Shown here: positions 1-63,924 of the stretch, one piece after another
How the letters are laid out: each line of letters begins with the position of its first letter
Position numbering within the stretch: position 1 is the stretch's first letter
IMG/VR virus record: IMGVR_UViG_3300044691_000230
Coordinates: 1 to 63,924 of that record
Reading direction: 5' to 3' (one strand)
Source: a virus
DNA length: 63,924 nucleotides
Translations under genes and position numbers: made by a program
Notes under the pieces: generated by a model
What the model was told of the DNA's origin: nothing
The model's input: the letters and a program-made list of their open reading frames with translations, nothing else
Databases searched by the model: none

Positions 1-441
1 GCTCTGGCCGCTCGGGACGCTCGGGACGCTCAGGACGCTCTGGACGCTCTGAACGCTCGGGCCGCTCGGGCCGCTCTGGACGCTCGGGACGCTCGGGACG
101 CTCGGGACGCTCTGTACGCTCGGGCCGCTCGGGCCGCTCTGGACGCTCGGGACGCTCGGGACGCTCTGGACGCTCTGGACGCTCTGGACGCTCTGGACGC
201 TCGGGACGCTCGGGCCGCTCGGGACGCTCGGGCCGCTCAGGACGCTCGGGCCGCTCAGGCCGCTCTGGACGCTCTGGCCGCTCGGGACGCTCGGGCCGCT
301 CGGGCCGCTCGGGACGCTCGGGACGCTCAGGACGCTCGGGACGCTCAGGACGCTCGGGACGCTCGGGCCGCTCGGGCCGCTCTGGACGCTCTGGACGCTC
401 GGGACGCTCGGGCCGCTCGGGACGCTCGGGACGCTCGGGCC
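1..441 (+). repeat. 9-base tandem array, 49 units (left end)
   Basis: Forty-nine consecutive units of GCT-CNG-GNC with no length change, in frame with the downstream coding region. Codon 1 is always GCT (Ala). Codon 2 is CGG, CTG or CAG (Arg, Leu, Gln). Codon 3 is GAC or GCC (Asp, Ala), with one AAC and one TAC. The array ends at 441 where the frame continues as unique sequence beginning Ala-Phe-Asp. The same repeat family fills 63672-63923 at the other end of the window. Confidence 0.97.
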
Positions 442-1197
442 GCATTTGATCGCGTCGGCAATGCCGAACACCGCTTCGCGTCGTGGTGTATCCAAGGCTG
501 GGGTTGGTGGTGGGGCGTTCGCGAGATGTCGTGGATTTCCACGACTTTCCTAGGCTCTCGCACTGAGGCCGTTCGGGCTTGGTCGGAGCCTTACTTCGAA
601 GCCTACTGCGCCGGGGCGTGGCTCCTTCATTTCACCGACGATACGCTCTACTGGGCGGCAAAGCCCATCGTTCACGTTGAACGTAATCCAGCCTTCGCCA
701 ACGGTCGACGCATGCACAACGACAAGTACGCCGCATTGGAATCGGACATCGAGAACCTCTATTTCTGGAAGGGCGTTCTTGTCCCAGCTTTCGTGGTCGT
801 TCGCCCGGACTGGATCACCGTCCAGCATATCGAGACGGAAGAAAACGCCGAGGTCCGCCGTGTGATGATTGAGCGCTACGGCGTGGATCGCTACGTTTCC
901 GACAGCGGCGCGCAAGTGGTTCACGCCGATCTGGACCAATATGACCGTCCGCGGCGATTGTTCGTGAAGGAAGTCACTGACGACGAACCCATCGTCATGG
1001 TGGAGGTGACGAACTCCTCTCCCGAACCAGACGGGCACTTCAAGACATACATGCTGCGGGTCGATCCGAACGCCTATGAAGGCCGCGCTTCTCGCGAGTG
1101 CCACGCCGCCATCGCGTCGACCTGGCGGCGAAAGGGGGACCTTTCGGAGTTCGTGTTCAAGATCCCGGAAAGCTACCGCCCATTGGTCGAGAGTTAA
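1..1197 (+). CDS. Repeat-tethered DUF6745-like protein (C-terminal part)
   Basis: The frame is open from the first base to a TAA at 1195-1197. Residues 1-147 are Ala-x-Asp/Ala triplet repeats; the remaining ~250 residues are a unique domain. An aromatic patch (GWGWWWG) precedes a region with FTDDTLYWAAKP and HVERNP, and the C-terminal part contains VEVTNSSPEPDGHFKTY and LRVDPNAYEG, which I recognise as the DUF6745 signature of phage and bacterial proteins of unknown function. The gene starts at 63438 across the window junction, so the internal ATG at 526 is not the true start. The Ala/Arg/Asp triplets permit i to i+4 Arg-Asp salt bridges and suggest a rigid single helix. The KGG gene follows after 3 bases. 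Family membership is from memory of motifs; biochemical function is unknown. Confidence 0.85.
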   Translation, partial: ALAARDARDAQDALDALNARAARAALDARDARDARDALYARAARAALDARDARDALDALDALDALDARDARAARDARAAQDARAAQAALDALAARDARAARAARDARDAQDARDAQDARDARAARAALDALDARDARAARDARDARAAFDRVGNAEHRFASWCIQGWGWWWGVREMSWISTTFLGSRTEAVRAWSEPYFEAYCAGAWLLHFTDDTLYWAAKPIVHVERNPAFANGRRMHNDKYAALESDIENLYFWKGVLVPAFVVVRPDWITVQHIETEENAEVRRVMIERYGVDRYVSDSGAQVVHADLDQYDRPRRLFVKEVTDDEPIVMVEVTNSSPEPDGHFKTYMLRVDPNAYEGRASRECHAAIASTWRRKGDLSEFVFKIPESYRPLVES

Positions 1198-56394: not shown

Positions 56395-56945
56395 GCCGAT
56401 TTCCCCGGGAAGCGGACCACGCCCTCGCCTAGAGGTTCCTCCTGATAGTCCTGTGTATCTTCCTTACCTGGATAGGGAGGGTTCTTAATCTCTATCTCAG
56501 TCTCTATTGGCTTAGCACTCGCTAAGCACTCGCTAAGCGGTGGCTTAGCACTCGCTAAGCGTCTGCTTAAGCCTTTGTCTGAGCGGGGTTTTTTTCGGCT
56601 CGCAGAACCGCCTTTTTTGCCGCGCGTCGCTTGTTCCGATTTAAACGCGAATTGATTGTGCAATTCGCGCGCTGCTCTCGCGTTCATTAATCCAGGTAAA
56701 CCGTCCAATGTGGGCGCCAAAAATAACTTGTCCTTGGCGATCAATGCGTCCCGATCCCGCAGCCATGCCGCTTCGGAACAGTCAAAGAGGCTGGCCCAGT
56801 AGAACGGCTGGTCTTTGACGGGACCCCCTTCGATATAGATGCAATTGATCACTGTGACGTAGACGCCGCGCTCGGATCGGCTAAGGCCGACCATGCCGTC
56901 ATTGAAGGCCGATGGTGAGCACTTGTACCAGGGGAGGCCACTCAA
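56391..56945 (-). CDS. DUF1376 replication-initiator-like protein
   Basis: 184 residues. PWYKCSPSAFNDGMVGLSRS then ERGVYVTVINCIYIEGGPVK and YWASLFDCSEAAWLRDRDAL are the DUF1376 winged-helix core, a family found at the position of lambda O-type initiators. The basic middle leads into a tract with the repeated peptide LASAKP that is encoded by iteron-like DNA (56509-56572), and then a disordered end. Overlaps the helicase by 4 bases. Probably binds the origin lying within its own gene. Confidence 0.8.
   Translation of the reverse strand: MSGLPWYKCSPSAFNDGMVGLSRSERGVYVTVINCIYIEGGPVKDQPFYWASLFDCSEAAWLRDRDALIAKDKLFLAPTLDGLPGLMNARAARELHNQFAFKSEQATRGKKGGSASRKKPRSDKGLSRRLASAKPPLSECLASAKPIETEIEIKNPPYPGKEDTQDYQEEPLGEGVVRFPGKSA
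56509..56572. repeat. Iteron cluster, candidate replication origin
   Basis: GGCTTAGCACTCGCTAAGC occurs at 56509-56527 and at 56542-56560, a third partial copy ACTCGCTAAGC lies between (56528-56538), and a GCTTAAGC palindrome follows at 56565-56572. Each full unit is a dyad (GCTTAG/CTAAGC) about one helical turn apart in spacing. Flanks contain AT-rich runs, including TTTTTTT and TTTTTT tracts at about 56585-56620 and GATTTAAACGCGAATTGATT at about 56637. Sits inside the DUF1376 gene. Confidence 0.6.
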
Positions 56946-62191: not shown

Positions 62192-63409
62192 ATGGCTGGA
62201 TATCTGGCATCGGGTCCGGGAACGCGCAAGCCGCGCAACGGCGGGAACGTCGGGTTCAAGCATCGCGGCGCCTTCAAGCTGCTGACGGCTTCGAACCACA
62301 AGACGCCCAAGGGCGAGACGCTGGGCTTTTTCTCGGCCGTCCTCTACCTGATGCCCCACACATCGGGAGGCGGTTCAACCCTCTGTCCGCACTCCACTCC
62401 CGCCTGCCGCGAAATGTGTCTCGCTGGCGCAGGTCTGTCGGGCCTTCCCAAGCAACTCGGCGCCAAGATGAAGCGCACCAAGCTTTTCAACGAGGACCGG
62501 CCGGAATTCCTGCGCCTCTTGCTGGCGGATATCGCCAAGCTGGAGCGGATCGCGGCGGCGGAAGGGATGCGGCCCGCGCTACGGCTCAACGGGTCAAGCG
62601 ACGTCCTTTGGGAACGCGTAATCGACGGCTGGTCCGACCTTGGCCTGACCCGATACGACTACACTAAGATACCGCTGGAACACCGCCAGACCGACCCCGG
62701 CTATCACCTGACCTTCAGCATCGAAGGCCCGCAGGACATGCGCCGCGCCGTCGGCTACCTGCGTGCTGGGCATAGTGTCGCCGCCGTGGTCCCCGAAGAC
62801 GTCAAGCACAATGCCCCGTCTTGGATCGCGCTGGGTGAAGACGTTGCCGAAGTGATCGACGGCGATCTCACCGACGCGCGGTTTCTTGATCCGCCATCCT
62901 CCATCGTTCTGCTCAAGCCCAAAGGCCATATCCGAACGGACTTGATCCGCCCTAATCTGTTCGAAGAGTTGCGGGCCGCTTCCGGCTCATTCCAGCGAAA
63001 GGCAAGACCTATGACCAAAACCCACATTCCGCTCGCCAAGCTGCCCGATGGCCGTGAAGCCGACGCCGAGACGATGGCGAAGGAATTCGCCAACCCGGGC
63101 GACCATATCCGTCAAGGCGACGTGCTGCTCATCAAGCGCGCGTCCAAGCCCCAGGGCGCCGGGTTGCTGCCCCGTGAACAGGGCTCCGTCGTTCTGGCGC
63201 ACGGCGAAGTCACAGGCCACATGCATCAGTTGCGCGGCCCGCAAGTGACGCACTATCGCGACAGCGGCCACGAATACATGACCGTCGTGAACAAGCCCGA
63301 AGCGCTGGTCCACGAAGAGCATGGCGGCATCTTCATCCCGCCGAGCGATACGGAACTGGGCCAACAGGTGGAGTACACGCCTGCCGAACTCCGCAATGTC
63401 GCCGATTAG
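62192..63409 (+). CDS. GP88/DUF7227-like fusion with HGDV-type domain
   Basis: 405 residues. Residues 1-270 resemble the phage GP88/DUF7227 family: HKTPKGETLGFFSAVLYLMP, STLCPHSTPACREMCLAGAG, ALRLNGSSDVLWERV and YHLTFSIEGPQDMRRAV. Residues ~310-405 are a small beta domain (HIRQGDVLLIKRASKPQGAG, SVVLAHGEVTGHMHQLRGPQ, LVHEEHGGIFIPPS), usually a separate gene next to DUF6745 proteins. An internal ATG at 63011 with GAAAGG upstream could express that domain alone (133 residues). The join region RTDLIRPNLFEELRAA departs from both families, so it may be a recent fusion. Role unknown. Confidence 0.78.
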   Translation: MAGYLASGPGTRKPRNGGNVGFKHRGAFKLLTASNHKTPKGETLGFFSAVLYLMPHTSGGGSTLCPHSTPACREMCLAGAGLSGLPKQLGAKMKRTKLFNEDRPEFLRLLLADIAKLERIAAAEGMRPALRLNGSSDVLWERVIDGWSDLGLTRYDYTKIPLEHRQTDPGYHLTFSIEGPQDMRRAVGYLRAGHSVAAVVPEDVKHNAPSWIALGEDVAEVIDGDLTDARFLDPPSSIVLLKPKGHIRTDLIRPNLFEELRAASGSFQRKARPMTKTHIPLAKLPDGREADAETMAKEFANPGDHIRQGDVLLIKRASKPQGAGLLPREQGSVVLAHGEVTGHMHQLRGPQVTHYRDSGHEYMTVVNKPEALVHEEHGGIFIPPSDTELGQQVEYTPAELRNVAD

Positions 63410-63437: not shown

Positions 63438-63924
63438 GTGCACAAAGATCACGAACGCTACGTCCGCGCCTGCGAATACCCCGGAGTTCTCGATGAAGCC
63501 GCCGTCGAGAAGCACCTAGCCGACTACCTTAAGGCGCTGGGCGTAACACGGCAGATCGTCCGGCTACGACAGGGCTGGACGCTCCAAGAGCATCCGTCGC
63601 TGGCTCGGTACGTCAGCAACGTGTTGGACGATTTCGGCAAGCGCAGCGGCCGAAATCGTCCTCCTCTGGACGCTCGGGACGCTCTGGCCGCTCGGGCCGC
63701 TCTGGACGCTCTGGCCGCTCGGGCCGCTCGGGACGCTCGGGCCGCTCTGGACGCTCTGGACGCTCGGGACGCTCGGGACGCTCGGGCCGCTCAGGACGCT
63801 CTGGACGCTCTGGCCGCTCGGGCCGCTCTGGACGCTCGGGACGCTCGGGACGCTCGGGCCGCTCGGGCCGCTCTGGACGCTCTGGCCGCTCGGGACGCTC
63901 GGGACGCTCAGGACGCTCAGGACG
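63438..63924 (+). CDS. N-terminal part of triplet-repeat DUF6745 protein
   Basis: GTG at 63438 with AAGGA 10 bases upstream. The first ~75 residues are unique and helical (YVRACEYPGVLDEAAVEKHL, LARYVSNVLDDFGKRSG), followed by Ala-Arg/Leu-Asp/Ala triplets to the window end. The frame leaves one base over at 63924; joining this end to position 1 with that base shared keeps the frame, giving about 560 residues in all. N-terminal domain function unknown. Confidence 0.82.
   Translation, partial: MHKDHERYVRACEYPGVLDEAAVEKHLADYLKALGVTRQIVRLRQGWTLQEHPSLARYVSNVLDDFGKRSGRNRPPLDARDALAARAALDALAARAARDARAALDALDARDARDARAAQDALDALAARAALDARDARDARAARAALDALAARDARDAQDAQD
63672..63923 (+). repeat. 9-base tandem array, 28 units (right end)
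   Basis: Twenty-eight consecutive 9-base units of the same GCT-CNG-GNC family as 1-441, in frame with the 63438 gene, preceded by one degenerate unit (CCTCTGGAC). The array reaches the window end and continues at position 1 in a circular map. Confidence 0.97.

Follow-up and report, generated by a model that had tools for sequence, protein, structure and literature searches.

Under relaxed or positive selection, the repeat copies of a single protein grow apart, and an array that is being homogenised can be swept by beneficial changes (Persi, Wolf and Koonin 2016, PMC5120217). The repeats of Borgs have been described as mostly disordered and as perfect, with units that hardly ever differ by a single nucleotide (Schoelmerich et al. 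2023, PMC9879509). It is usual to write off short coding repeats as slippage noise; in the array described here the silent sites provide an internal control, and selection within an array becomes measurable in uncultivated phages. Our literature searches returned related concepts and no description of this array, and a full-text search on the name DUF6745 matched no paper. The array occupies both ends of a viral contig (IMG/VR record IMGVR_UViG_3300044691_000230, positions 1 to 63,924), and we refer to this whole stretch of 63,924 nucleotides as the window. We consider it probable that this in-frame array is a coding minisatellite of a phage DUF6745 protein, shaped by homogenisation in nine-base units and by selection that maintains a mixture at two sites. 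The relevant features are these:

1..441, + strand: left-end part of the array, 49 units by unit count in the frame shared with the right end, with one AAC and one TAC codon
442..450, + strand: degraded edge unit GCA-TTT-GAT, read from the sequence
451..1197, + strand: C-terminal part of the array protein, the DUF6745 domain by Pfam match (PF20530, E 3.6e-30)
63011..63409, + strand: 'RQGDV..LAHGEVTGH' partner matching phrog_27831, the 3' part of an ORF at 62192-63409 whose 5' part matches GP88
63438..63662, + strand: N-terminal region of the protein that carries the array (start codon GTG at 63438, or else ATG at 63396), with the '..ACxYPGxLD..YLxALGV.R.IxRLxxGW..' region kept in viral relatives
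63663..63671, + strand: degraded edge unit CCT-CTG-GAC, read from the sequence
63672..63923, + strand: the array's right-end portion, by unit count 28 in-frame copies of GCT-C[G/T/A]G-G[A/C]C (Ala - Arg/Leu/Gln - Asp/Ala)
63879..63924, + strand: 46-base terminal stretch equal to window positions 1-46 with one mismatch by end comparison, a probable circular-contig end overlap

The original prediction held that variation among the right-end units is confined to bases 5 and 8, that the codon-third bases T, G and C never vary, and that every change is nonsynonymous. Unit counts at 63672-63923 bear this out exactly: base 5 is G in 15, T in 10 and A in 3 of the 28 units, base 8 is A in 17 and C in 11, and the other seven positions are constant. 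The silent part of the claim extends to all 77 units of both ends, where the third bases are T, G and C throughout and silent changes number 0, whereas the limit to two positions stands for the right end and fails for the whole array, since two of the 49 left-end units differ at base 7 (one G>A and one G>T, giving AAC and TAC), both amino-acid-changing. Silent differences are present in the degraded edge unit at 442-450, and the first codon is altered in the edge unit at 63663-63671. The sole mismatch of the 46-base end match falls on the dimorphic base 5 of a unit; such a match has a chance of about 0.001 in shuffled units, so the contig is probably circular or wrapped and both of its ends probably belong to one array of about 72 units. 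A single G at 63924 trails the last right-end unit, and a plain end-to-end join leaves one surplus G while trimming the overlap preserves the frame. The array codes for A-[R/L/Q]-[D/A] repeats in frame with the region before it and with the DUF6745 domain after it (105.2 bits in the window against a curated cut-off of 27). To judge from this continuous frame, the contig ends split one gene with the array in its middle, and the protein has about 545 residues once the end overlap is removed.

Other genes in the window have matches to tailed-phage families for portal, terminase and head closure. In 28/30 relatives with enough upstream sequence, the array gene is preceded by an RQGDV homologue, and an RQGDV gene also precedes the DUF6745 gene of a Streptomyces cadmiisoli plasmid (L456); this conservation suggests that the DUF6745 protein works together with the RQGDV protein. 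In the window, the start of the RQGDV part is in frame with the GP88-like ORF (62192-63409). Neither DUF6745 nor the partner had a match in a defence-system library or in NCBIfam. A separate small tandem repeat is found at 56510-56569, with an 11-base unit (GCTAAGCACTC) in about 4.6 copies.

Taken by itself, the right end is weak evidence against neutrality. Around 28% of sense single-base changes are expected to be silent, and about three mutational events suffice for this end, which puts the chance of an all-nonsynonymous outcome at about 0.35. To that extent the array is compatible with a neutral minisatellite, in which a few founder changes were amino-acid-changing by luck and were spread by slippage with selection absent. 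The strength of the case against neutrality therefore lies in related arrays. The first relative (L002) shares the protein plan at 60% identity and carries an array of the form GCC-A[G/T]A-G[A/C]C, in which the variable sites are the same two second-codon bases and the silent bases differ from those of the window. Pattern scans with free third positions recovered dozens of such arrays. Because selecting on the array itself was to be avoided, 58 viral loci were collected by the DUF6745 domain alone, the array not being a criterion. Nearly all of these 58 genes have a tripeptide array at the matching place, with a few contigs leaving too little to judge. Each array has its own fixed set of silent spellings (GCT/GCC/GCG/GCA, CGG/CGC/CGT/AGA/AGG and GAC/GAT), and in almost all arrays of this domain-ascertained set the mixture sits at the middle base of the same two codons. 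The comparison with homologous loci that was suggested along with the original prediction yields dozens of related viral arrays that share the two-site mixture and spell it with other silent bases. In one DUF6745 relative (L455), a 12-base array [R/W/G]-[D/A/E/N]-N-L replaces the tripeptide; its variation is likewise restricted, to NGG and GAT/GCT/GAG/AAT, with AAC and CTG invariant over 32 units. None of the 50,697 cultured-phage records searched held a relative with this form of array, a Vibrio phage match proving a false lead on reading, and a genome-contig protein scan found no relative.

For the comparison of silent with non-silent variants, the variant codons of each array were split by frequency (common meaning 10% of its units or more) after trimming of edge units, with within-array unit frequencies used in place of allele frequencies. 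Across 50 domain-ascertained arrays, common variants were 121 non-silent to 4 silent and rare variants 61 to 30, the latter being about 33% silent, which is the neutral ratio; common and rare variants differ at Fisher p = 3e-9. The pattern-ascertained set, which overlaps the domain set, gave 111:2 for common and 37:16 for rare variants, whereas control 9-bp viral arrays, with less certain frames that were picked on the length of the ORF, gave 69:27 for common ones. By site, 56 of the 125 common variants change the middle base of the Arg/hydrophobic codon, and a further 49 that of the Asp/Ala codon (105/125 together). The rare variants are what a neutral minisatellite would produce, but the common ones are not: neutral simulations with duplication, deletion and mutation gave common variants that were about 11-24% silent and spread over nearly all nine positions. 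Neutrality would in addition require one very recent ancestor of the arrays, and the silent turnover described below contradicts this; we regard it as quite unlikely. The arrays are not fully independent, and common variants may be partly inherited. With that reservation, the test for nonsynonymous excess that had been suggested upholds the claim of non-neutrality, in that silent variants arise and almost never turn common while D/A and R/hydrophobic variants do. The premise that a neutral array accumulates silent changes survives only in amended form, as fast homogenisation can prevent such accumulation; what remains valid is the contrast of silent with non-silent variants at matched frequency.

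How the mixture behaves while its spelling changes was followed on a tree of 47 DUF6745 domains, on which 12 silent haplotypes require at least 22 changes. Through this turnover, D is common in 50/50 arrays, A at the position of D in 48/50 and R in 49/50. In 46/48 arrays, putting T at the second base of the commonest Arg codon gives the commonest hydrophobic codon, a rule that pairs CGC with CTC, CGG with CTG, AGA with ATA and AGG with ATG, and the Asp and Ala codons have one third base in common in 46/48. Both pairings therefore indicate one protein pattern that is spelled differently across viruses, and on this codon evidence the conserved property is charged versus hydrophobic, the local spelling setting which hydrophobic residue appears. 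The silent-site likeness of units is higher within arrays than between homologous arrays. In two close relatives (L403 and L405), flanks are 95.7% identical over 1.7 kb and yet the unit order of the arrays is no longer alignable. With its in-frame units, homogenised silent sites and relatives that differ in unit number, the window array fits a coding minisatellite under concerted evolution.

An inherited seed would account for the mixture differently: both types of unit would have been present when the family arose, and shuffling would have carried the mixture along as a relic. Most viral DUF6745 arrays are indeed mixed at the same protein position, which makes common ancestry of the dimorphism plausible. 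However, a relic should vanish as fast as silent bases are replaced, and the mixture has outlasted the at least 22 haplotype turnovers; likewise, L403/L405 suggests that units turn over far more quickly than silent bases are substituted, which argues against a passive relic. Moreover, viral proteins with no recognisable relationship to DUF6745 (L006, L007, L008, L012, L235) carry the same amino-acid type of array with silent bases fixed and two positions mixed, which argues that the pattern is selected and not inherited in one family. We therefore judge the seed explanation unlikely. None of these non-DUF6745 proteins had a hit above cut-off in Pfam or PHROGs. A faecal phage clone (L397, MT835534.1, at the start of the record) encodes a homologue of L008/L012 with another alanine-rich array that is cut by the record end. 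Restricted silent variation was also observed in other repeats: common silent variants are few or absent in 9-bp arrays reading C-S-[D/Y/S/G/R] in a putative frame (L153, L159, L171, L197, L208, L256, L261, L271, L276), and silent variation is almost absent from alanine runs with interspersed Asp and Tyr (L110, L050, L062, L064, L109, L113), where nearly all codons have one third base, e.g. GCT/GAT/TAT in L110.

The original prediction had also noted that, with CAG-GAC as ancestor, the two variable sites of the window are exactly its two adenines, as would be expected of adenine-targeted mutagenesis of the type found in diversity-generating retroelements. This coincidence does not carry over to the relatives, in which adenines elsewhere in the unit are mostly fixed. 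Arrays of relatives that share this dimorphism spell Arg as AGA, AGG, CGC or CGT and Ala as GCA; the outer bases of AGA are invariant in 61/61 units of L412 and 35/35 of L428, as is the GCA adenine in 60 units of L436, 55 of L449 and 49 of L422. In most arrays the Arg codon varies between G and T, not A. The window record, which may be incomplete, has no RVT_1 match to a reverse transcriptase, and a scan for tandem repeats located the unit at the two window ends only and revealed no second, template-like array copy. The idea of a CAG-GAC ancestor with targeted adenines has thus been abandoned, and we find such mutagenesis highly improbable. Instead, the two-site mixture points to selection on the protein and not to a mutation machine, because dozens of uncultivated phages share it in different codons.

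Most of the arrays come from short-read metagenome assemblies, so their unit number and order may carry assembly error. Two loci with 100% identical flanks (L421 and L422), for example, have 32 and 51 units and differ by a 19-unit block, for which assembly error is possible. Contig ends cluster inside arrays in many IMG/VR contigs, and 23/58 domain-ascertained contigs end in an array or at its edge, as the window itself ends inside one. It follows that unit numbers are lower bounds or approximate, and that viral genomes carrying these genes may be listed as linear although they are circular; array breakage also accounts for the many viral contigs that stop within genes of this kind. These breaks are what one would expect if the repeat itself had been shuffled or collapsed by short-read assembly, but such error cannot make frame-preserving, codon-position-specific variation across dozens of separate samples, and many arrays are spanned inside contigs. 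We give an assembly product hardly any credence.

With rare variants looking neutral, common ones non-silent and the mixture outlasting its spelling, our preferred reading remains that homogenisation erases silent changes while selection keeps the mixture. Slippage or unequal recombination, frequent and by nine bases at a time, would keep the array homogeneous and sweep new variants in or out, and silent changes would be wiped out in the process. Selection at the protein level would maintain a mix of Arg with a hydrophobic residue (Leu, Ile or Met, as the Arg codon dictates) at one position and of Asp with Ala at the second. What is selected is probably composition and length, since unit order seems immaterial, with neither helical periodicity (at 100 degrees the combined power does not exceed that of shuffles) nor clear lag autocorrelation. 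Ordering into an amphipathic alpha-helix was rejected on these grounds, and charge balancing between R and D showed only a weak trend (r 0.25, p 0.075). In AlphaFold2 models the array forms long helices, at a confidence that is moderate to low overall and low in mid-array, and proline in five units of L002 counts against a helix; a structure search of the model against the PDB gave no match with E below 0.001. Our guess at the most likely role is an alanine-rich helical arm or spacer of variable length that would connect the N-terminal region to DUF6745. Another conceivable view, which we rate as possible but rather unlikely, is that the array is a combinatorial, fast-reshuffled string with few allowed states per unit, an effectively random order and a turnover that outpaces the flanking gene, so that diversity itself would be favoured, e.g. 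for varying host-factor binding, in many phage lineages and several unrelated proteins. The array is an obvious testable feature for DUF6745.

Compared with the described systems, arrays of the window type resemble those under the horizontal positive selection of Persi and colleagues in their non-silent excess among copies, but phage units have only three residues and silent bases that are almost fully homogenised, and the two-site mixture persists over many silent turnovers whereas the Persi copies diverge and are then conserved. Like the amino-acid tandem repeats of Borgs, the phage arrays are in-frame, sit in genes of extrachromosomal elements, evolve fast, vary in unit number and are hard to assemble; unlike them, they are mixed at two sites in nearly all cases and predicted to be helical. 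Diversity-generating retroelements likewise limit variation in phage genes to amino-acid-changing positions, but variation in the window phage is not adenine-specific, no reverse transcriptase was found there and the tandem-repeat scan showed no template repeat. Finally, bacterial DUF6745 (PF20530) proteins share the C-terminal domain and, in the Streptomyces plasmid, the upstream RQGDV gene, while the nine members that we read (the Streptomyces and Nostoc plasmid copies and seven cyanobacterial or actinobacterial proteins) differ from the viral ones in having no tandem array in mid-protein.
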